From IMG/VR virus record IMGVR_UViG_3300020200_000081, positions 1-35,558 of that record: a stretch of 35,558 bases of DNA. The stretch is one strand, 5' to 3'. Under the pieces are notes generated by a model that did not search any database, was not told where the DNA came from, and was given only the letters and a program-made list of their open reading frames with translations. This stretch comes from a virus. Positions 1 through 35,221 of this stretch are shown here, piece after piece; the first letter of the stretch is position 1, and every line of letters begins with the position of its first letter. A program made the position numbers and the translations under genes.

Positions 1-336
1 TTCAGAGTAAGCGATATTTGTATCAAGATTTTCAGCTATGTATTCAGCATACTTAATACTACTATCAAGATTTTCAGCAATATATTCAGAATAAGAGATA
101 TTTCTATCTAAGTTTTCAGCTAGATATTCGGAATAGGAGATATTTCTATCTACATTTTCAGCTAGATATTCAGAATAAGAGATATTTCTATCTAAGTTTT
201 CAGCTAAATACTTTGAGTAAGAAATATTTCTATCTACATTCTCAGCAAGATATTCAGAGTAAGAAATATTCTTATCTAGATTTTCAGCTAGATATTCAGA
301 ATAGTTAATTGCTTTTTCTAGATTTTCGGCTAGATA
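1..336 (-). repeat. Tandem 42-nt coding repeat (14-residue units), eight copies
   Basis: Eight consecutive 42-base units (1-42, 43-84, 85-126, 127-168, 169-210, 211-252, 253-294, 295-336) encode variants of NISYSEYLAENLDR in the prohead protease fusion. The units differ at several positions, so the array is not freshly duplicated. Degenerate versions continue to about 440, and the array probably runs past the window start. The exact multiple of three and the conserved YLAEN core show protein-level selection. Confidence 0.9.
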
Positions 337-1203
337 GTCATTATGAGAAATAATTTTCTCAGTTCTTGTTTTCAGGTCTTTGTTTTCATTAACAACGACT
401 TGAATTTTCTCAGCGAGATAATCTAAATATTTAACTACTTGACCGTTAGTCTTATTAAGTTCATCATAATACTCAATAAGTTTTTCAACTTTTCTCGGTT
501 CAACACTACCTTTGGTGATAGCTGTTTTTACCTGTTGTTTTGTTGAAGCGATCTCATTAATTAAATAATTTGAATAGTCCGTGAGTTGTCTTTTTGTAAC
601 AAATTCGTTTTTGTTCATATTAAAAAGTTCATTTATTTTGGACTCGTTGGATACTTCATATATCCTAAAGTTGCTTTTATTATTGAATCCTAAAGATTCA
701 TTGATTGAAGTCATCTTAGCTGAAGCAAATCCAGGATCTGCTACAATGTCATAAGTAAATAGTTTTTTGAGTGTTACTGATCCGTCGGACTCAGTAACAC
801 CAGCTGCTCTCGAGGAAACAAAGATCGGACAACCATCGTCGACAAGTGATTTAGCCTCTTTACCCCAATAAGTTGATAGTAGTTTAATTCTACCATCTAC
901 TCTGTTTTCATCTTTGTGGTATCTAGCTTCTAGAACTAGGTGGGAAGCTCTTGAAAGAGATGTATCAAAAACATCCGGGTGATCAAACTCGCCGTAGACG
1001 ACACCCATGTTTTCAATTCTTTCATTTAACTCGTTTAGTGCTGGAATAAACTTATTCGCAGTGTAGATTCTTTCGTTACGATTTTTCTTATCGAACTCTG
1101 TAAAAATACCACCTAGAACATAATTATTCCCTTTTGATGATGATGCGCTCTCATTTACCCTAAGCGGATTTGCGTTGTTTTCAACAATTAGTATAGGTTT
1201 CAT
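1..1203 (-). CDS. Prohead protease (gp21-like) fused to repetitive scaffold-like region, partial at the window edge
   Basis: The frame opens at ATG 1203-1201 and reads 401 codons to base 1 without a stop, so the C-terminus lies outside the window. Residues about 40-135 match the T4 gp21/S80 prohead protease pattern: NERIYTANKF, then YGEFDHP with the likely catalytic His75, then IFVSSRAAG with the likely catalytic Ser130 or Ser131. This family matures the prohead by cleaving scaffold and capsid proteins. From about residue 270 onward the protein becomes a 14-residue repeat (NISYSEYLAENLDR type), heptad-compatible and probably coiled coil. Inference: protease and internal core scaffold (T4 gp21 and gp22 roles) are joined in one chain. 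T4 gp21 is only about 210 residues. An AATATATAA promoter-like element lies just upstream. Confident for protease, moderate for scaffold. Confidence 0.8.
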   Translation of the reverse strand, partial: MKPILIVENNANPLRVNESASSSKGNNYVLGGIFTEFDKKNRNERIYTANKFIPALNELNERIENMGVVYGEFDHPDVFDTSLSRASHLVLEARYHKDENRVDGRIKLLSTYWGKEAKSLVDDGCPIFVSSRAAGVTESDGSVTLKKLFTYDIVADPGFASAKMTSINESLGFNNKSNFRIYEVSNESKINELFNMNKNEFVTKRQLTDYSNYLINEIASTKQQVKTAITKGSVEPRKVEKLIEYYDELNKTNGQVVKYLDYLAEKIQVVVNENKDLKTRTEKIISHNDYLAENLEKAINYSEYLAENLDKNISYSEYLAENVDRNISYSKYLAENLDRNISYSEYLAENVDRNISYSEYLAENLDRNISYSEYIAENLDSSIKYAEYIAENLDTNIAYSE

Positions 1204-9419: not shown

Positions 9420-9435
9420 ATGAAACTTATGAACT
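9420..9435 (+). pseudogene. Possible 5' fragment of a small gene split by the IS element
   Basis: ATGAAACTTATGAAC begins here on the plus strand after a promoter-like AATATATATAAACAAAA leader, then runs straight into the IS terminal hairpin. The remainder of the gene may be the open frame at 10683-10940. This is inference from position and leader similarity. Confidence 0.35.
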
Positions 9436-10588
9436 ACACAAGAGCTAAAGACTTTTGTGTTTCTACGGCACACGCATAATCCAATGATTTACGTTGAGTG
9501 ACGCTGGGTTGGTTCCTCAACCCGAAATTTTTTATATTTATGGCAGCATTTATGTCGCGATCATGTATTTCACCACAATCCTTACATACCCATTCACGAT
9601 CTGATAATTTCAGGTCCCTATTCTTCGCACCACAAGAATTACAAGTTTTACTAGATGGTTCAAACCTATCAATTACTTGGAGTTTTTTACCATACCAATC
9701 ACACTTGTATTCCAACATAGACTTGAGTTTGGACCAACCCATGTCTTGAATAGCTCTTGATAATTTACCATTCTTCATCATATTAGAAGTTCCAAGATCT
9801 TCAATACATATTGTATCATAATTATCCACTAGATATTTAGATACTTTATGTAAATAGTCTTCACGTTTATTCCTGATATGCTCATGAATTAATGATACTT
9901 TAAGTTTTTGGTTGTTGTAGTGATTTGATCCTTTTTGTTTTCTAGCTAAGGATCGCTGCTCAATCCTTAACCTATTTAATTCGGATTTGAAGAAGTCTTG
10001 GTTCTTGAACTTCTTACCATCCGATGTTATAGCAAAATCTTTAATTCCTAGATCCACACCAACACTAGTGTATAATTTAATTGGTTTCTTTTCTGGTTTG
10101 GACTCATGTGTATCTACCAATATACTTATATAATATTTATTAGTTGTTGATTTTGAAATAGTTGATGTCTTTATAGTTCCACTAAATTCTCTATGCATAT
10201 CTATATCCACCAATTTAAGTTTAGGTATGAATACTTTACCTTCCTTTAAATAGACACCTTGTGGTAATTGGAAACTCTGCTTTGAATATTTATTCTTAAA
10301 CTTTGGAAAACCACCACCTTTGAAGAATCCGATATAAGCACTATCTAGATTTTTCATAGCCATTTGGAGTGATTGACTCGGTGCGTCAATCCAGTCTATA
10401 TGGTCTTTGAGGTCTTTAATTTGATTATTTAGATCGAAAGCTGATATAGATTTTCTGTGTGATTTCCAAGCATTTATCTTTGTTTCTAATCCTAAATTAT
10501 AGACAAATCTAACTTGACCAAAGATATTTGATAGTTTAACTATTTGATCGTCAGTTGGTTATATTCTATATTTATAGGATTTTAACAT
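9434..10588 (-). pseudogene. tnpB: TnpB RNA-guided nuclease gene with a premature stop at codon 10
   Basis: The full frame starts at ATG 10588 with MLKSYKYRI, then TAA (10561-10559), then PTDDQIVKLSNIFGQVRFVY and onward to the stop at 9434. The TAA stands where TnpB proteins have Tyr in the conserved RIYPT motif, so one base change (TAT or TAC to TAA) broke the gene. The longest intact frame starts at ATG 10363 (309 residues). It keeps the RuvC residues (Asp104 in GVDLGIKDFA, Glu188 in CIEDL, Asp in IHDRDINAA) and the CNSCG/CKDCG zinc finger, but lacks the first 75 residues, which help bind the guide RNA. The protein end (TQKSLALV) is encoded inside the terminal palindrome. The guide (omega) RNA normally overlaps this 3' end. 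Probably inactive as a nuclease unless an internal start still gives a functional protein. Confidence 0.8.
9436..9460. repeat. IS terminal palindrome, tnpB 3' side (RE)
   Basis: ACACAAGAG, loop CTAAAGA, CTTTTGTGT: nine paired positions with one G-T. It overlaps the last codons of tnpB and matches the palindrome at the other end in its loop and inner stem. Confidence 0.7.
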
Positions 10589-10685: not shown

Positions 10686-10940
10686 TTGTCTTTGACCGTC
10701 AATATAAAACAAGTTCTAGATTGGGATATTTACGAAGAGCCGAAACTTGTTATTGAGTTACCAGAAAGAACATACAAAATAGCCTATAACAAAGCAAAAG
10801 ATATTTTTTACATTGATAGATACTATCTAGTAAATCAAATTGTAGGAAAAAGAGTAGTTGATAAAAATATTTTAGACGAGTTTAAGGAGTTTTTTTATGG
10901 CCAACTTTTTGATATTAATCAAAAGTATGGAGATCAATAG
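10683..10940 (+). CDS. Small protein, probably 5'-truncated by the IS element
   Basis: 85 codons counted from a GTG that lies within the IS palindrome, so that start is not credible as the original. The body is soluble, charged and well formed (VNIKQVLDWDIYEEPKLVIE, then YKIAYNKAKDIFYIDRYYLV and a helical end). It ends with TAG at 10938-10940, overlapping the convergent gene at 10934 by 7 bases, a typical phage packing that implies the 3' end is original. Joining the ATG fragment at 9420 (MKL...) to ACC GTC AAT (10697 onward) would keep one frame (MKLTVNIKQ...). The family is not recognised. No promoter of its own is visible after the insertion. Confidence 0.5.
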   Translation: MLSLTVNIKQVLDWDIYEEPKLVIELPERTYKIAYNKAKDIFYIDRYYLVNQIVGKRVVDKNILDEFKEFFYGQLFDINQKYGDQ

Positions 10941-12085
10941 ACTAAACTAGATTGATTAGTAAAACCAGGAGAAAGTAGATAAAAATTTGACACCCCTCCC
11001 GAAATCGGTGTAAAACTATAGGTTGTTAAAACTCCAGGGATAGAAACTCGTGTGTCTACTGTTCCAGATAAGAGATTATCCCACTGAGTTTCGGTAAAAA
11101 GTAAAGTTCTTTTTTGATAGCTAAGACCGTTTATTCTTCTTGATATAGTATAGATATCACCAACACTTATTCTAGTATCACCATTTAGTTCGTATTTGTG
11201 AAAGTGAATAGATTTAGTAGGTATCCTACCTAAAACTACACTATCAATACCTAAATAATCACTACTTGTTAAGTTTGATGAAACTGTAGGTATAGTAATT
11301 TCAATAGACCATTCATCACTAGCAGTTGTTGGCGAAGAATATGAATATTGACCTAGTGAGTTTGTTGTTTGAGTTGATTGAACTTGCCAACTACCCGGTA
11401 TAGTTGTTAAAATACCTAGTTCAGAGGTTTGCAGTGTATATGTAGATTGACCAGGTCTTTTCCATACAACTGTTAATCCATCCCCCCCACCATATTCTTG
11501 CATCCTTGCTCTGAAGGTATATTGTGTTCCAGCTACTAGATTTATGGTTCCGTAAATAGGACCACTCATACCGTGACCTCCATAATAACTTACAACAAAA
11601 GTTCCACCAATGAATAAATCACTTCCATCATCTGAGTTTATTCCAAAAGAATATTGACCAGTAACTTGAGGTATAAAAGTTCCAGAGACTTCAACAGAGT
11701 AAAAATCACCGTTGTTTGGTATAGTAGCACCTGCGTTTCTAAGAGTAGTAAAAGTAGTAAAGTTAAGACAAGTTGTTATAGGAAGAGTTCCCGTCCATCT
11801 TAGTTGAGTGTTGGAAAATCCAGTATTAAATAATCTATCAAAATCTGATGTAACTGTTGGGTACTGACCATATTGAGAAGTGTTTCCATTTCCAGCATGA
11901 GTTGAATAAACCCGAACATTAAGAGTCGAGGATAAGGCCGCTTGTGGAGATCTCTTAGATAATTTAGTAACTATATTTGGTATTGGTGTGCTGCCCTCAG
12001 CTCTAATTGTGCCTGAATGAGTGAAATTTTGAGCACCTACACCTAATGTTAGAAGAAGAAATAAAATAGAAAATAAACTCTTCAT
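10934..12085 (-). CDS. Secreted protein with PA14-like and dockerin-like domains
   Basis: 383 residues. MKSLFSILFLLLTLGVGAQ is a signal peptide. Residues about 45-230 resemble a PA14/GLEYA carbohydrate-binding domain: VSGTFIPQVTGQYSFGINSD, DDGSDLFIGG, then AGTQYTFRARMQEYGGGDG and LTVVWKRPG. A beta domain follows (TQTTNSLGQYSYSSP...WSIEITIPT). Next is a dockerin-like pair: LTSSDYLGIDSVVLGRI, then ELNGDTRISVGDIYTISRRI, where Glu replaces the first Asp of the calcium loop. No T9SS sorting domain is seen at the end. It is the last gene of the operon starting near 16980, and its ATG overlaps the stop of the upstream gene (12082-12085, ATGA). It is paralogous in its C-terminal half to the protein at 8213-9382. 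Probably a surface or extracellular binding protein; ligand unknown. Confidence 0.75.
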   Translation of the reverse strand: MKSLFSILFLLLTLGVGAQNFTHSGTIRAEGSTPIPNIVTKLSKRSPQAALSSTLNVRVYSTHAGNGNTSQYGQYPTVTSDFDRLFNTGFSNTQLRWTGTLPITTCLNFTTFTTLRNAGATIPNNGDFYSVEVSGTFIPQVTGQYSFGINSDDGSDLFIGGTFVVSYYGGHGMSGPIYGTINLVAGTQYTFRARMQEYGGGDGLTVVWKRPGQSTYTLQTSELGILTTIPGSWQVQSTQTTNSLGQYSYSSPTTASDEWSIEITIPTVSSNLTSSDYLGIDSVVLGRIPTKSIHFHKYELNGDTRISVGDIYTISRRINGLSYQKRTLLFTETQWDNLLSGTVDTRVSIPGVLTTYSFTPISGGVSNFYLLSPGFTNQSSLVY

Positions 12086-14694: not shown

Positions 14695-16596
14695 TTATTT
14701 TTTAATAAACTTATATATTTTTTGTTTCGTGTCTGTAGTTAATCTAACAAAATATAAGCCAGGCTCGAGAGTGTTTGTTTCGATTCTTCTGGTGACGATT
14801 TGATCTTGTGCTACGAATTGTGTTTCTCTACTGTGGATTTTTCCAGATAAATCGAAAATTTCTGAAATTAGATTGCCTGGTGCTGTTTGGAAATAATCTA
14901 CATACATTTCATCAATAACTGGATTTGGATAAATTCTAAATCCGTTGACAAGCTGATCTACAAGATCTCTAGCTCTTCTACCATTAACGATTGTAGCATC
15001 AGTAGGTGAAGGAATAATATTTAAATCTTGTGCTTTTTCACTACCAGCCGCTTTGTTAATGATTTGTATAGGAGCTTCTTCCCAGTTATTGTTTAAGATT
15101 TCAAATTTGAAGTTAAACATTTGTGTAGGATTGGTGATTAGAGAAGGTGCCATTTTTGATTCGTGACCACCCCATAAGATTTCACCTGATTTAGAAGAGA
15201 TAAATGAGTTCCAATAACTAGCTTCTGGACCTACAGATACACCTACAAACTTGAAGATTTGAGGATCATATTTAAGACCAATTTGTGATGCTCCTACTTT
15301 ATTTCCGTGAGTGATAAGTGTAACATTAACATCTACCGTATTATCACCTGAAATAGTAAGTTTTGGAATTCTAAATTGAACTGAATCCTTAATGTTTTGG
15401 TAGATCATACCTTGATCAAGAACATAAGATGTTCCAGAATTTCCAGTATTAAGTCTCTGTATTTGGAAAGATACGTTGTTAAGACCTGTTCCAGTAACAT
15501 CACCAAGAACATATCCAATGTAACTCATAGAACTCATACCATTAAGTAATAGATCAATGAGAGTTGTCCCGATAATTGAACTTTGGAATGTGTTCGGGTT
15601 GGTTATTATTTGATCGTATTCTCCTGGTGTATAATACCTTACGTTGTATTCGTTGGCAACAACTGGTGACCATGTCGTTCTACCAGTAGCTAGACGATTG
15701 AAGATAAGATAAGCATCTGAAACTGAAATAGAACTACTTCTATTTACGTCAGCTTGTTGAAACTCATAAGATTGAGCCGTGTCAGCGTAGATACTCATAT
15801 CAGAAAGACGATAAGCATCAGTGATATTAATAGCTGAGTTATCGGATAAAGTATCTAAGTTTGATACTAATTTTACATCGTAGAAAGAAGTATCGTATGG
15901 TATTTTGATATCAGCAATACCAATGGCATCGGTAGTGAATCTTTGACCTCTTTGATATGTCTGTGCTGACTTTAACTTGAAGTCATAAGCAAAAGGCATT
16001 CCACTCGCTGGTGTGCCATCAACATTCAATACCGAAACCGGTATGGAAATAGTATCCATCTGGAATCTACCACCTAAGTTGTATGTTCCTAGGGTATTAT
16101 CGATACCACTTGTAGTTGTAGCTATATTGTTGTATGTTGGAATGCCCGTCACTCTTAGTGAGTCTACCGATGAAGGGTTGAAACCAACTGCGTGTGGTAG
16201 TAGAACTTCAAACACAGCACCATCTGGCCAATCAAAAACAGCAGATGAACCAGTATAAATAGCAGTTGCGTTAACCCAACCTGGTTGAGAATAATACGAA
16301 CCGTATTTAGTAATGATTGAAGTAGTAGTAGGTCCCCATTTAACAATAGGCTGTTTAAATGAAGATTGTGGATAGAAAAACCTTACCTGAAAACCAGCAT
16401 AGTTCGTTAGGGTTGGATTGTGATAGTGAAGATAAACCTTAGTAGTATCTTGAAGAATGCTACCAAGTGTAAACACAGTGTCAATAATGAAGTGTGGTGA
16501 AGATGAGTTTGGTGAGATCAAAACTTCATTTCTACCGTTTTGGCCGAACGCGTTGAGCGTGATTAGGGCAAAAAGCCCAACAAGAAACTTTTTCAT
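14695..16596 (-). CDS. T9SS-sorted exoprotein with cohesin-like and dockerin-like modules
   Basis: 633 residues. MKKFLVGLFALITLNAFGQN is a signal peptide. Residues about 25-170 are a beta domain. A short beta segment (about 185-240) leads to a dockerin-like pair: INITDAYRLSDMSIY, then DVNRSSSISVSDAYLIFNRL. Residues about 400-545 resemble a cohesin fold (VDVNVTLITHGNKVGASQIG, LKYDPQIFKFVGVSVG, then a closing beta segment). Residues 552-633 are a type A T9SS C-terminal sorting domain: GFRIYPNPVIDEMYVDYF, EIFDLSGKI, LEPGLYFVRL, then a Lys-rich end KQKIYKFIKK. Such domains direct Bacteroidota proteins through the type IX machine to the cell surface. The phage protein would therefore use the host T9SS. 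It is the second gene of the operon, 5 bases after the two-TM gene stop and 15 bases before the next start. Confidence 0.8.
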   Translation of the reverse strand: MKKFLVGLFALITLNAFGQNGRNEVLISPNSSSPHFIIDTVFTLGSILQDTTKVYLHYHNPTLTNYAGFQVRFFYPQSSFKQPIVKWGPTTTSIITKYGSYYSQPGWVNATAIYTGSSAVFDWPDGAVFEVLLPHAVGFNPSSVDSLRVTGIPTYNNIATTTSGIDNTLGTYNLGGRFQMDTISIPVSVLNVDGTPASGMPFAYDFKLKSAQTYQRGQRFTTDAIGIADIKIPYDTSFYDVKLVSNLDTLSDNSAINITDAYRLSDMSIYADTAQSYEFQQADVNRSSSISVSDAYLIFNRLATGRTTWSPVVANEYNVRYYTPGEYDQIITNPNTFQSSIIGTTLIDLLLNGMSSMSYIGYVLGDVTGTGLNNVSFQIQRLNTGNSGTSYVLDQGMIYQNIKDSVQFRIPKLTISGDNTVDVNVTLITHGNKVGASQIGLKYDPQIFKFVGVSVGPEASYWNSFISSKSGEILWGGHESKMAPSLITNPTQMFNFKFEILNNNWEEAPIQIINKAAGSEKAQDLNIIPSPTDATIVNGRRARDLVDQLVNGFRIYPNPVIDEMYVDYFQTAPGNLISEIFDLSGKIHSRETQFVAQDQIVTRRIETNTLEPGLYFVRLTTDTKQKIYKFIKK

Positions 16597-23439: not shown

Positions 23440-25584
23440 ATGCCTGCACAAAAAAAAGAAGAAGTCGTAAGACAGATAGTATTCACAACCAAGATGGTTG
23501 AGAATGTTACTAAAAGTATCAACGATGGTGTTGTAGTTAAAAGATTTCAAAATCCATGGTTTCAAAATGAAATCGGTGTAAGAAGAAGTGGGATTGTGTT
23601 CAACAGAACAGAAGAAGAAGTTCAAGAATACATAAAATGTAAGCTTGATATTAAATATTTCGCCCAAAAATATTGTAAAATAAAAACCGAAGATGGAACG
23701 ATTACTCACATCCAACTTCGTGATTATCAAAAAGAAATCTTGGATTTATTTTCTAAAAATAGATTTTCTATATTGTGTTCAAGTAGACAGGTAGGAAAAA
23801 CTGTCAATACCGCAATCACAATATTACACTTTTTACTATTCAATAACGATAAAAACGCGATGATCGTAGCAAACGTCGCGGCTACTACTATTGAAATTGT
23901 AGATAAGATCAAATCTATTTATGTTCTACTACCTTTCTTTTTGAAGGCTGGTATAAAAAACTGGAATCAACGAAGTATAGTTTTTGATAATGGATGTAGA
24001 ATAAAAACCGCAGCTAGATCTAAAACACCAGCTATTGGTTTTACGATTGACCTTCTTTATATGGATGAGTTCGCACATATACCTTCAAATATCATCGAGC
24101 CATACTATACGGCTGCTTACCCAACAGTATCTGCTATACAGAACTCAAAAATTATTATTACCTCAACACCAAACGGTATGAATCTTTTCTATAAACTCTT
24201 AACTGCAGCCGAAAGACCAGAGGGTGATCCTCTTAAAAACAACTACAAAGCTATGCGAGTTTATTGGTATCAAGTTCCGGGTAGATTTGTAACTTATTAC
24301 CGATTGAATCCATTTAAGATGAGAGATCTAGGTCTCACTAAAGAGATGGTATTCGAGCTTGCTGAAGAAGAGTTTAAAGATTCTACAAAAGTTTTACTTA
24401 AATACAATCCAGATTTTGATAAAGATGTTGTTCATGTGTACAATAATGATATTATAACCGAAGAGGTATCTAAGGGGTTTAGATTTTTAACACCTGGTGG
24501 AAAGGAAATTCATATCTCCCAAATAAGTGAAGTTTCAACATGGAAAGAAGAAGCCATTAAAGATATCGGCGGAGAAGATGCCTTCAATCAAGAGTTTGGA
24601 TTAAGATTTATTAACTCATCAAGATCGCTGCTTTCAGAGAGTATTATAGAGGGTCTCATTAAGGGTAAGAAAAATTACGAGTGGCAAGAGATTGATAAGA
24701 TGGAGACCTTTCTCAATTTTTCTTATCAAGATCTTAAATGGATAGATGATCCTGATGTTTTTTCTCAAGAAAGAAGAAAGTTAGTTAAAGGTATAATCTC
24801 GATTGATATTTCAGAAGGTTTAGGTCAAGATTATTCAGTCATGAATATATTTAAGATTTCACCTAAATCTATGGACACCGTGGAAGCTTTCAGCACAGAT
24901 TATAAAAACCTTTCTGATTTCTTTTGCTTAGAACAAATCGGGTTATTTAGAAGTAATGTTATATCGGTCAAACAACTAGCTGAACTTTTTTATGTTCTAG
25001 CATTTGAGTTTTTCGATCCTGATAATTTTAAGGTAGTTTTAGAAATTAATACCTACGGAAATGAGTTTTTAGCACACTTGCCCCATGTGTTTGACGGTAA
25101 TAATAACTATGGTAGTAATATATTCTTTCGATATAAACATAAATCTGATGCAGTAGAAGAAAAAGTCGGACTAAAATTAGGTGACAATAAAAATCTTCTA
25201 GTTAAAGATTATCAAGATAATATGAACAAGAAAAATATTATCATCAACAACGAAGATAATATACGAGAGATAACTACTTTTGTTAAACACACGACTGCTT
25301 TTGGAAACACACGTTATGCGGCTGATATTGGAAATGATGATATTGTTATGACCGTTGTAAACTCTTCATCTGTTTTTCAAAAACATCCCTATAGAGAAAT
25401 TGTCGAGGATGCCGCACCTACCATCGCGGGAACTGAGCTCTATAAACATTTTCAATCTATTTTAGGTAATCAAGTTGATGAAAACTCAATCAACTACTCT
25501 TCAATTATTAAAGAGCAGAGGCATAGAAAGGATAGACTAAAAAAGATTCTAGGTTACGAAAAAAGTCCTTGGGCTAGAGATTAA
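23440..25584 (+). CDS. Terminase large subunit (gp17-like)
   Basis: 714 residues. The ATPase half has Walker A SSRQVGKT (114-121), Walker B LLYMDE (205-210, catalytic Glu210) and coupling motif TSTPNG (241-246). The RNase H-like nuclease half has GIISIDISEGLGQDYS (Asp456), VVLEINTYG (Glu535) and ADIGNDDIVM (Asp633/634). All catalytic residues needed for DNA translocation and headful cutting are present. T4 gp17 is 610 residues; the extra length lies partly around 310-380 between the two halves. The start is chosen at ATG 23440, 16 bases after the divergent TATATA element. The stop overlaps the stop of the convergent clpS gene in a shared TTAA. Confidence 0.95.
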   Translation: MPAQKKEEVVRQIVFTTKMVENVTKSINDGVVVKRFQNPWFQNEIGVRRSGIVFNRTEEEVQEYIKCKLDIKYFAQKYCKIKTEDGTITHIQLRDYQKEILDLFSKNRFSILCSSRQVGKTVNTAITILHFLLFNNDKNAMIVANVAATTIEIVDKIKSIYVLLPFFLKAGIKNWNQRSIVFDNGCRIKTAARSKTPAIGFTIDLLYMDEFAHIPSNIIEPYYTAAYPTVSAIQNSKIIITSTPNGMNLFYKLLTAAERPEGDPLKNNYKAMRVYWYQVPGRFVTYYRLNPFKMRDLGLTKEMVFELAEEEFKDSTKVLLKYNPDFDKDVVHVYNNDIITEEVSKGFRFLTPGGKEIHISQISEVSTWKEEAIKDIGGEDAFNQEFGLRFINSSRSLLSESIIEGLIKGKKNYEWQEIDKMETFLNFSYQDLKWIDDPDVFSQERRKLVKGIISIDISEGLGQDYSVMNIFKISPKSMDTVEAFSTDYKNLSDFFCLEQIGLFRSNVISVKQLAELFYVLAFEFFDPDNFKVVLEINTYGNEFLAHLPHVFDGNNNYGSNIFFRYKHKSDAVEEKVGLKLGDNKNLLVKDYQDNMNKKNIIINNEDNIREITTFVKHTTAFGNTRYAADIGNDDIVMTVVNSSSVFQKHPYREIVEDAAPTIAGTELYKHFQSILGNQVDENSINYSSIIKEQRHRKDRLKKILGYEKSPWARD

Positions 25585-25865
25585 ACTACTTCAATAGTAA
25601 CGGATAAACCATTAAGTTTTAGAGCTTCGTAAGGCTTTTCAACTTCTGATTTTGTGCCTCTCTTTACATCACAAATACCTCTGAAATGAACAATGTGTGC
25701 GCACTGATTGGCTTGATCGAAATCATGATCACAAAACTCAATTAGGCAATTGATTACATGTTGAAAGCTATTATGATCGTCGTTGTGTAGATAAAGAACA
25801 TACCCAGAAGAATAAATCTGGTCTAATTTTTCTTCGGTTTTATCTTTGGTGATTGTTTTGGACAT
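25581..25865 (-). CDS. clpS: ClpS-like N-degron adaptor
   Basis: 94 residues from ATG 25865; an upstream in-frame start at 25928 overlaps the divergent gene and promoter and is rejected. The core VLYLHNDDHNSF aligns with the ClpS VNDD motif (Asn28, Asp29, Asp30 for binding the alpha-amino group; Phe34 at the hydrophobic gate position). QCAHIVHFRGICDVKRG supplies His60, equivalent to the conserved pocket His. The end GLSVTIEVV matches the last strand. ClpS hands proteins with destabilising N-terminal residues to ClpAP or ClpCP. Length is normal for the family. Inference: the phage redirects host Clp proteolysis. The gene shares its stop region with terL and has a leader of about 50 bases with a TATATATA element. 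Confidence 0.85.
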   Translation of the reverse strand: MSKTITKDKTEEKLDQIYSSGYVLYLHNDDHNSFQHVINCLIEFCDHDFDQANQCAHIVHFRGICDVKRGTKSEVEKPYEALKLNGLSVTIEVV

Positions 25866-25900
25866 AGTAGTTATTTTTTTGTGTAAAGATAAGGAATTTT

Positions 25901-25916: not shown

Positions 25917-26354
25917 ATGACAGATCAAAATATTTCATCAAAAGATACAACTTGGAAGATACATGTTATCTACCTGTTTGTTGTAGTATGTCTAGGTGGT
26001 TGGATAGTCTATACACACCTAAAACCAAAAGAAACAAATCCCGAAAACGTTAAACTTCTCGAAGAGATTGCAAAAATAGGAGCTGTAAGAGATTCTCTTC
26101 TCGAGGAAAGGACCGGTCTAAGGACTAGAATTTCAGATATAGAATCAGAAATTGAGAAAAAAGAACTTGAAATCAAATTAGTTAAGCAGAAAGTTGCTAA
26201 TCTAGAGAGCAAAGTAACTACCGCTAATAATGAACTAAAAAAGTCGGATCAAAGAGTATCTGAAGTAAAATCACAAATAGAAAATTTAGAAAAAAATATA
26301 CCTCTCAAAGAAGGAGACGATCTTCTTAACTCATTAAAAAATAAATACAAATGA
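25917..26354 (+). CDS. N-anchored coiled-coil membrane protein (inner-spanin-like)
   Basis: 145 residues. One transmembrane segment near the N-terminus (HVIYLFVVVCLGGWIVYTHL) follows a short hydrophilic start, so the body is periplasmic. Residues about 42-125 form a strong coiled coil (IEKKELEIKLVKQKVANLES). This is the topology of Rz-type inner-membrane spanins, which fuse inner and outer membranes at lysis. The next gene overlaps by 4 bases (ATGA) and also encodes an envelope coiled-coil protein, as spanin pairs do. Not adjacent to the endolysin, so the assignment stays tentative. Confidence 0.5.
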   Translation: MTDQNISSKDTTWKIHVIYLFVVVCLGGWIVYTHLKPKETNPENVKLLEEIAKIGAVRDSLLEERTGLRTRISDIESEIEKKELEIKLVKQKVANLESKVTTANNELKKSDQRVSEVKSQIENLEKNIPLKEGDDLLNSLKNKYK

Positions 26355-26848
26355 AAAAAATATTATTATCCGCACTTGTAAGTTTTTTATTCTTTTCTAC
26401 TTCAGTAGCGCAGACCACAGAAGAAACTTTCCCACAACTCTACAAACAAGGTGGAAGTGTTGTTGGTATTGTCTTTTCTGTTAAACAAGCTCAACAGATA
26501 GATAGAGATAGAGAACTATTAGAACTACTAAAAACACTAACCTCAGAGCTAGAAACCAACAAAGTAGCTAGTCTAGAAGTTATAAATGTTCAAAAACAAA
26601 CTATTGAAGCAAAAGATGATCAAATAAAACTTCTCGAAGGTGAAATACTTGATTATAAGATTAATATCAAAACAAGAGATTCTTTAGAAATCAATCTGGA
26701 GAGTGATGTAAAACTTTGTGATGAACAATCAAAGAAAAAAGATCAGATTATCTCAAATAAAAATGATGAGATAAAAAAATTAAAAGGTCATCGTTTACTG
26801 CTCGGATCTACAACTTTGTTATTCCTAGTAGTATCGATAATTTTCTAA
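26351..26848 (+). CDS. Exported coiled-coil protein with C-terminal TM segment
   Basis: 165 residues. MKKILLSALVSFLFFSTSVAQ is a signal peptide (no lipobox). A coiled coil spans about 50-140 (VINVQKQTIEAKDDQIKLLE ... KDQIISNKNDEIKKLK). The last 20 residues (LLLGSTTLLFLVVSIIF) are a transmembrane segment. Signal at one end and membrane anchor at the other is the layout of a unimolecular or unusual spanin, or of a periplasmic stator-like partner. Translation is coupled to the upstream N-anchored coiled-coil gene. Confidence 0.55.
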   Translation: MKKILLSALVSFLFFSTSVAQTTEETFPQLYKQGGSVVGIVFSVKQAQQIDRDRELLELLKTLTSELETNKVASLEVINVQKQTIEAKDDQIKLLEGEILDYKINIKTRDSLEINLESDVKLCDEQSKKKDQIISNKNDEIKKLKGHRLLLGSTTLLFLVVSIIF

Positions 26849-33866: not shown

Positions 33867-33894
33867 AAAACACACCTACTGGTGTGTTTTTTTT
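33867..33894. terminator. Bidirectional terminator between convergent genes
   Basis: AAAACACACC pairs with GGTGTGTTTT (loop TACT), with T-run on the plus strand and A-run on the minus. It closes genes ending at 33842 (plus) and 33893 (minus); the minus stop codon overlaps the T-run. Confidence 0.8.
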
Positions 33895-35221
33895 ATAGGC
33901 AGTAATTTACTGACATAATCGATCCATTCGTATTGATCTGGAATGGTTTCAGGGGACCTTGACCCTGAGCACTCAGTGCGATCCATTTTGTCCCGCCATT
34001 TGTGGGTTGAGTTAAACCGATGTTGTCATAAATAATATCACCATTTATGAGTGAATTAATTGATTTGGTACTATAGTAGGCTCTTGTGGGTTGGTATGTG
34101 AGGCAAGCACCCGCATAGTTGATAGCATCAGGTGTAGACCTTCCCATGAACATGAACAGAGTTTGAGTTGAGGTTGGTGTTTTTGTTGGAGTAACTGTTG
34201 GTGTTTTTGTGGGTGTCCGAGTTGGTGTTTTCGATGGTGTGGGTGATGGAATACATACATTACCACAGATACCAACATTCGGAGAAACAATACCCGAACC
34301 ACCAGAAATCCAAGTTATTTCTCCGGAAGCTATACATTCTGTTTCGATAACAGAATCCGATAGAACTGCAAAACTTGTTATTATATCACCGTTACAATTC
34401 AAATAGGAATAGTATCCTGTAGCCACTCCTGTTTGATCAATAGTGTAAGTTACACATAATTTGCATGATAAACTAGGTGTGACTGTAGGTGTTATTGTTG
34501 GTGTAGATGTACCAGTTGGTGTGACTGTAGGTGTTATTGTTGGTGTAGATGTACCAGTTGGTGTGACTGTAGGTGTTATTGTTGGTGTAGATGTACCAGT
34601 TGGTGTTATAGTATTTGTTGGTGTTTGTGTTGGTGTTTGAGTTGAAGAAGCATTCGGTGTTCCTGTCAATGTTGGTGTTAGAGTATTTGTTGGTGTTTGT
34701 GTTGGTGTCCGGGTATTAGATGGGGTGAGTGTTATTGTCTGTGTGTTGGTAGGAGTTAGTGTTTGAGTATTTGTAGGTGTTTGAGTATTTGTGGATGTTG
34801 GTGTGGGTGTAATAGTTGGTGTAATTGTGGGTGAAGCTCCAGGTGTACCTGTAACTGTTGGTGTTGATGTATTTGTAGAAGTTAGAGTAGGGGTTGGTGT
34901 AACAGTTGGTGTCGAATCCGGTGAAGCACCCGGTGTTTTTGTAGGTGTTGTAGAAGGTGTTACAGTTGGTGTTTGTGTGACAGTCGATGTTGGTGTTGGT
35001 GTTAGAATATAATCAGATACTAAAACCGTGTAATCACATCCATCACAGTTGAAAATATAAGTTCCGTTCAGCTCATCTGTACCTCTCCCATATAAAACCG
35101 GATTAAAAGTCCACGGAAAACTAAAAGTAGAGGTAATATTAAGAACTCCACCTCCACTTGGAAAAATAAGTTGTAAAGTGCAGTTGGTAAGCGGACTAGC
35201 CTCAAATGTTACTGTAGCCAT
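33893..35221 (-). CDS. Thr/Pro-repeat protein, probably a virion surface or fibre component
   Basis: 442 residues. A beta-rich N-terminal domain (about 1-72: [20 protein letters not shown] ... [15 protein letters not shown]) is followed by a mucin-like tract of TPT, TQTPT and TPTxT repeats (about 73-250). A small Cys-bearing beta domain (about 250-325: [20 protein letters not shown]) comes next, then a second short TPT tract, and a C-terminal domain of about 90 residues ([20 protein letters not shown] ... SIMSVNYCL). There is no signal peptide. Stalk-like Thr/Pro tracts separating small beta domains suggest a tail-fibre- or capsid-decorating protein that binds the host surface. Three exact 42-base repeats lie in the first tract. 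A TATATA element lies just upstream. Confidence 0.6.
34476..34601 (-). repeat. Three perfect 42-nt direct repeats in the Thr/Pro gene
   Basis: Units 34476-34517, 34518-34559 and 34560-34601 are identical base for base and encode 14-residue [14 protein letters not shown] blocks. Perfect identity amid otherwise degenerate TPT repeats suggests recent expansion. Confidence 0.95.

Follow-up and report, generated by a model that had tools for sequence, protein, structure and literature searches.

A predicted N-recognin, ClpS, encoded tail-to-tail with the terminase gene in a clade of giant phages

ClpS proteins encoded by phages have been reported before. Iyer et al. 2021, in the passages that bear on Clp proteins, name ClpS in several jumbo phages (e.g., AMM43882.1) and propose delivery to host ClpAP (PMC7824862), and the corresponding part of Attai et al. 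2018 lists ClpS (gp708) among the seven Clp-like proteins of Atu_ph07, which are said to include ClpA, ClpB, ClpX and a proteolytic subunit as well (PMC6102473). Since phage ClpS is already in the literature as an annotated protein for which a role has been suggested, we regard it as a kind of protein already known. Here we describe a clpS gene, likewise phage-encoded, in the viral record IMGVR_UViG_3300020200_000081 of IMG/VR; the whole stretch of 35,558 bases is referred to as the window. The phages of the two earlier papers differ from that of the window in having other hosts and a distant ClpS; the Atu_ph07 protein is a fold match to the window ClpS at 16% identity. New here are the conserved position of clpS, the conserved extension of its product, and an unfoldase lacking the N-terminal domain (hereafter N-less) encoded along with ClpP in three ClpS-bearing Mahaphages.

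A first-pass annotation of the window was not aware of any characterised phage ClpS. This stands in so far as no biochemical study was found in the open-access literature, but the protein has been annotated and discussed in the sections of PMC7824862 and PMC6102473 cited above. The open-access literature that we searched yielded no description of a clpS-terL linkage or of an N-less phage ClpC, and neither the main text of Al-Shayeb et al. 2020 (PMC7162821) nor that of PMC12607003 uses the term Clp; a cyanophage paper (PMC5082946) was set aside as it deals with host clpS. Further phage ClpS models are present in BFVD.

The window protein is a true ClpS. The search against PF02617 proposed in the first-pass annotation matched the profile at 51.9 bits (cut-off 23; E 6.6e-14), which rules out a chance open reading frame, and no second ClpS occurs in the record. 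Matches to the NCBIfam ClpS equivalogs lie below their cut-offs, the best scoring 35.7 bits against 117. Starting instead at an in-frame TTG (25928) would lengthen the protein by 21 residues; relatives begin at the equivalent of the ATG. The predicted structure has a mean predicted local distance difference test score (pLDDT) of 86, with at least 93 in each ten-residue block from residue 21 on, and ClpS, alone or in complexes, accounts for all of its top 21 PDB matches, for instance AtClpS1 (7d34, target template modelling (TM) score 0.89) and Mycobacterium smegmatis ClpS (9ayn, 0.92); Escherichia coli ClpS is among the best of these matches, at E 3.7e-07. The closest bacterial matches found are just 42-57% identical. 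Bacterial contamination was ruled out by relatives that are 95-99% identical and lie, with the same neighbours, on five further viral contigs. A 228 kb contig, G002, carries a ClpS 95% identical to that of the window.

Judged by its terminase, the window, itself a 35.6 kb fragment, belongs with the Mahaphages. Its terL product shares 60-62% identity with the terminases of LR745206 (635 kb) and LR756502 (642 kb) and 41-42% with those of LR756504 (636 kb) and LR756501 (735 kb), the five best terminase records being phages of 634-735 kb as ranked by sequence comparison. By size, we equate these four genomes with Mahaphages of Al-Shayeb et al. 2020, which in its account of the largest genomes describes complete phages of 634, 636, 642 and 735 kb, a Mahaphage clade and predicted Bacteroidetes hosts (PMC7162821). 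When 50,697 phage records were searched with the window ClpS (tblastn), matches were found in LR745206, LR756502 and LR756504 only, and in LR745206 and LR756502 clpS occupies the same position as in the window.

Relatives were collected by an alignment-based scan of viral contigs, a single-sequence scan having yielded 5 loci. All counts given here for synteny, selection and the pocket refer to 84 viral loci, namely the window, the best 80 of 381 related stretches and three phage records (L007-L009); near-copies are included, and the set holds 49 distinct cores, or 33 rows after thinning.

The pocket for N-degrons is intact. Asn28, Asp29, Asp30, Phe34 and His60 are all found, in the translation of 25865..25581, at the numbers that had been claimed for them, and the window keeps the equivalents of E. 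coli ClpS N34, D35, D36, V43, V65, H66 and L99. The equivalents of N34, D35, V43 and H66 are invariant in 33/33 phage and 59/59 Bacteroidota rows, and that of D36 is kept in 32/33 and 58/59, respectively. As compared to E. coli ClpS, the Met40 gate is replaced by Phe and Met62 by Ala. Since Phe is found in all 33 phage rows and all 59 Bacteroidota rows, we regard the Phe gate as a trait of the lineage; a phage-specific gate residue was dismissed, the Phe being general in the Bacteroidota ClpS sampled. Fold, Phe gate and pocket (N-D-D-x-N-[ST]-F with His) are thus common to phage and Bacteroidota ClpS; what sets the phage clade apart is its constant location by terL and a conserved 20-residue extension with a junction proline, a proline that the window's subgroup lacks. 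The Nei-Gojobori ratio of nonsynonymous to synonymous substitution (dN/dS) of phage clpS has a median of 0.126 and a maximum of 0.42 over 139 non-independent pairs, and the gene is under purifying selection. As judged from these sequences, the window ClpS is most likely a working N-recognin, and this prediction of N-degron recognition is much more secure than either choice of partner discussed below.

The position of the gene is likewise conserved. The coordinates bear out an earlier observation that clpS adjoins and faces the terminase gene with stop codons overlapping in TTAA (Table 1): terL stops at 25582-25584, and 25581-25583, read on the other strand, is the stop of clpS. The two genes are tail-to-tail in 81/84 viral loci, the exceptions being L009 (no terL near), L037 (contig end) and L040 (terL and clpS on one strand). 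Among the 81 convergent loci, 60 have 100 bp or less between the two genes, and the gene ends overlap in 40, of which 34 have the exact spacing of the window. In some relatives terL is unusually long or in two pieces (L012 3230-6553, L066 2491-5736, L021, L051, L055, L063), which suggests inteins or introns.

Upstream of clpS, spanin-like or o26899-family genes are present in 65 of the 66 loci that have 3 kb of upstream sequence; in the window the second of its two upstream neighbours matched no Pfam family. A motif search found HAD_SAK_1 (an RNA-repair type HAD phosphatase, PF10307) just upstream of clpS and on the same strand in 55/83 viral loci, for instance at L007 9459-9977 (+); it is absent from this position in the window. 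A T4-type late promoter was dismissed, TATAAATA being found 5' of clpS in only 2/55 distinct loci. Window positions 25884-25891 (-) resemble, with one mismatch, what we take to be the Bacteroidota -7 box, TAnnTTTG, and sequences like this presumed consensus also lie upstream of clpS in L050, L052, L068 and L077.

Table 1. Coordinates of clpS, its coding features and its neighbours in the window
Feature	Coordinates	Strand	Remarks
clpS	25581..25865	-	94 residues, ATG start conserved in relatives; PF02617 and ClpS fold match
N-terminal extension, residues 1-21	25803..25865	-	Conserved in phage clade; low pLDDT in model
Asn28-Asp29-Asp30 codons	25776..25784	-	Alpha-amine end of N-degron pocket; E. 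coli Asn34/Asp35/Asp36
Phe34 codon	25764..25766	-	Gate position; E. coli Met40; Phe in 33/33 phage, 59/59 Bacteroidota rows
His60 codon	25686..25688	-	Pocket; E. coli His66; 33/33 phage, 59/59 Bacteroidota rows
TTAA shared by clpS and terL stop codons	25581..25584	.	Stop positions
terL, T4-type terminase large subunit	23440..25584	+	PF03237, 68.6 bits; converges on clpS
Membrane-anchored coiled-coil protein, divergent neighbour	25917..26354	+	Weak Rz-like spanin match (phrog_739, 25 bits)
Second upstream neighbour	26351..26848	+	Signal peptide and C-terminal hydrophobic stretch by eye; synteny

One might ask whether clpS is simply a recent, possibly passive, capture of a host gene with no role for the phage, an origin that the first-pass annotation had proposed to examine by phylogeny. 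The ClpS tree (106 rows, 76 columns) places the phage set inside Bacteroidota ClpS, as such a capture would predict; because of the 76 columns and a bootstrap that had not settled, its fine branching is not used. In this tree the 33 thinned terL-linked phage rows form one set (support 100/89) together with L285, the ClpS of the 508 kb contig G032, and with the chromosomal L101, which like the similar L110 has bacterial genes on either side. The placement of L101 within the phage set, again in favour of capture, has weak support, and a grouping of the phage rows without it is not rejected (approximately unbiased (AU) test, p 0.355). The position by terL that is common to 81/84 loci, the low dN/dS and the wide diversity of the phage proteins all speak against a recent capture, which synteny over a diverse phage clade and selection contradict; we consider it very improbable. 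The simplest reading of the tree is an old acquisition of clpS from Bacteroidota.

What might such a protein do? The phage ClpS would bind proteins that start with bulky hydrophobic residues and pass them to a ClpC-type unfoldase acting with ClpP during infection. In the window's clade the partner would most likely be the host ClpC, bearing the N-terminal domain (Clp_N) on which ClpS normally docks, so that the phage copy would both increase the dose of the host N-degron protease and reprogramme it. We favour this combination of phage N-recognin, host ClpC as the likeliest partner, and ClpP, but only tentatively; we infer the N-degron binding, the ATPase partner, the timing and the proteins destroyed. 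Bacteroidota genomes usually carry an N-degron pathway, as indicated by Clp_N proteins in 19/20 ClpS-bearing genomes, ClpS in 284/296 and Leu/Phe-transferase in 91/99; no phage-borne Leu/Phe-transferase was found in the 17 records described below. Host ClpC is put slightly ahead of phage ClpC because Bacteroidota offer the normal partner and because N-less E. coli ClpA escapes ClpS, no longer responding to it according to work cited in one part of PMC6274998. Two observations support a host partner: Clp_N is missing from the unfoldase that accompanies ClpS in the Mahaphages, and it is retained in a lineage with linked clpS and clpC.

Alternatively, the phage may have an N-degron protease of its own, in which phage ClpS serves an N-less phage ClpC together with ClpP. 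Seventeen records, picked as ClpS carriers or terminase relatives, were searched for Clp parts. ClpS is present in nine, namely six viral contigs picked for ClpS and LR745206, LR756502 and LR756504, and no ClpS was found in the other eight (LR756501, LR756500, PAU, PTm1, MaF61, pT24, MA9V-1 and Lak-B5). ClpP matches occur in 9/17 records, with two or three in each of the ClpS-bearing genomes LR745206, LR756502 and LR756504. A ClpA/ClpC-type ATPase of ~650-710 residues is encoded by these three and by G002; Clp_N was not found in any of these four proteins with Pfam, and the UVR middle domain was found in those of LR745206, LR756502 and G002, a finding that does not extend to LR756504. These proteins have two AAA+ modules; Pfam AAA_2, AAA_lid_9 and ClpB_D2-small match 5/5 phage ClpC-like proteins examined, and scores against the NCBIfam ClpB and ClpA models fall short of the cut-offs. 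Across the 17 records Clp_N occurs once, in LR756501; this 735 kb Mahaphage genome differs from the ClpS-bearing ones in having neither ClpS nor ClpP and a ClpC that keeps Clp_N. ClpP-family matches with one in-frame TGA or TAA were seen in LR756504 (146269-146691), Lak-B5 (506597-507025) and LR756500 (44340-44891), and may be decayed copies, introns or recoding.

The loss of the N-terminal domain extends to viral relatives of the G002 ClpC-like protein, of which 80 were taken and 71 parsed. In 68/71 merely 36-69 residues precede the first ATPase module, as compared to 185 in E. coli ClpA, and the remaining three have ~200; with two of the nine unparsed relatives (the other seven have a long N-terminal region), 70/80 are N-less by length. 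An aromatic tip is present in 71/71 parsed proteins and the [VIL]GF ClpP loop in 69/71. Among 20 viral records tested, Pfam found Clp_N in nine, which are the nine with full-length ClpC, and PF02617 was found in three of 20 ClpC-bearing viral records searched, namely G032, which has ClpS, an N-less ClpC (L211) and ClpP together, and two with linked clpS and clpC. The distance from clpS to clpC is ~142-244 kb, and since most of the other records are fragments shorter than this, the absence of ClpS from them is weak evidence either way; the count of 3/20 also counts against a general pairing of ClpS with ClpC.

How, then, would ClpS be held by an unfoldase without its docking domain? A conserved extension inserted in the pore, together with the ClpC middle domain, might replace the N-domain. 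E. coli ClpS inserts its extension into the ClpA pore, the extension is poorly conserved among ClpS orthologues save for a short junction, typically with prolines, and altering the junction prolines makes E. coli ClpS degradable, all as described in the portion of PMC9663308 on the extension. The phage extension is 20 residues long in 44/49 distinct rows, and for pairs with a core identity of 0.6-0.7 the extensions are on average 0.50 identical in phages (594 pairs) versus 0.24 in bacteria (929 pairs). A junction proline is present in 47/49 distinct phage rows versus 5/103 Bacteroidota; the two phage rows without it are the window and L004, and the window's own subgroup lacks it. The uncertain start sites of bacterial ClpS weaken the bacterial side of both comparisons. 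A precedent for ClpS acting on a ClpC without its N-domain comes from Mycobacterium tuberculosis, whose ClpS binds such a ClpC1 via the middle domain, although that system is bacterial and inhibition of unfolding, not N-degron delivery, is what the relevant section of PMC6274998 shows.

Loss of the N-domain might in addition release phage ClpC from repression and put it out of reach of host adaptors. The N-domain of Staphylococcus aureus ClpC is required for its repressed resting state, as stated in a part of PMC12583610, and from this we infer that an N-less phage ClpC should be de-repressed. The phage's own protease is further favoured by the co-occurrence of ClpS, N-less ClpC-like ATPase and ClpP in all three ClpS-bearing records of more than 600 kb and in G032, with neither ClpS nor an N-less ClpC-like ATPase in the eight other phage-collection records searched, and by the UVR middle domain, aromatic tip and ClpP loop of the phage ClpC noted above. 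Against it stand the loss of the usual docking site, the separation of clpS and clpC (142 kb on G002, roughly 240 kb in LR745206 and LR756502), the lack of a junction proline in the window's subgroup and the small number of independent genomes. We also count against it that the residue which we take to be equivalent to M. tuberculosis ClpC1 Asp440, compared by eye, is apparently Lys or Arg in the phages. On balance we consider a protease of the phage's own possible but doubtful. Its fullest version, in which giant Bacteroidota phages would run a self-contained N-degron protease of ClpS, N-less ClpC and ClpP, with ClpS tethered by a co-evolved extension and the middle domain, and the whole machine permanently active and unresponsive to host adaptors, seems to us unlikely.

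Other viral ClpS lineages bear on the same question. With the ClpS of L264 as query eight loci were found, seven of which (L286-L292) have on one strand clpS, an intermediate open reading frame of 68-92 residues, possibly encoding a membrane protein, and then a full-length clpC encoding 844-850 residues. The ClpS sequences of four of these seven loci are identical (L287-L289 have the same ClpS as L286 and are represented by it), and in the eighth locus, L293, clpS is followed 4.3 kb downstream by an N-less clpC. Clp_N was found in 5/5 records of the linked lineage tested and ClpP in 4/5. From the linkage in L286-L292 and the retained Clp_N it follows that phages do pair ClpS with a ClpC of their own, which favours the phage's own protease, but with the docking domain kept in that lineage, which counts against it for an N-less ClpC. 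A second large viral ClpS set, L324-L401, is akin to the ClpS of LR756504 and mostly has no terL or clpC nearby; its pockets look intact, neighbours and pockets being the only features examined.

Returning to the host ClpC as partner, several points weigh against it. Since Bacteroidota nearly always have ClpS, an effect of dose has to be assumed; the host phylum comes from the literature and the ClpS tree; and the binding and degradation of N-degron proteins remain predictions. The conserved phage extension, which sets these proteins apart from bacterial ClpS, hints at a fixed, phage-encoded partner. The part of PMC12493166 on docking describes contacts of E. coli ClpS with the ClpA N-domain via E79, E82 and K84, and of these only E79 is mostly kept acidic in the phages (32/33 rows, the window having Ser instead), whereas most phage rows have lost E82 and K84. 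K84 is lost in most Bacteroidota too, and the docking-contact residues do not decide between the partners.

A further alternative is that phage ClpS acts mainly as a decoy or brake, occupying host ClpC and diverting it from, e.g., SsrA-tagged or phage proteins, with N-degron delivery being secondary. As the phylum already has ClpS, added ClpS would then shift an existing balance. For instance, ClpS inhibits the degradation of SsrA-type substrates by ClpAP (a passage of PMC9663308) and unfolding by M. tuberculosis ClpC1 (the above section of PMC6274998). A pure blocker would need no substrate pocket, however, and yet the pocket is kept in 33/33 phage rows; we consider a decoy improbable.

Other genes of the window also merit mention. 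A TnpB-like protein with OrfB_IS605 and Cas12f1-like TNB domains is encoded at 9434-10363 (-), amid phage structural and lysis genes. At 14695-16596 (-) and 10934-12085 (-), adjoining other signal-peptide proteins, are encoded proteins with cohesin and a C-terminal sorting domain of type IX secretion, and with a PA14 domain. The N-terminal half of the product of 1-1203 (-) is prohead-protease-like (weak S77/S80 matches) and is followed by tandem YSEYLAENLD-type repeats that run off the contig end, and a long Thr-Pro repeat protein is encoded at 33893-35221 (-).

With the present findings, a scattered annotation of jumbo phages becomes a conserved and syntenic gene of a giant-phage clade. If ClpS acts in these phages as we propose, this would mean that bacterial viruses manipulate N-degron proteolysis, much in the way that viruses of eukaryotes do with ubiquitin. 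If it instead serves the N-less ClpC of the phage, these genomes would offer a natural test of ClpS action without the N-domain, a question raised by the work on M. tuberculosis.

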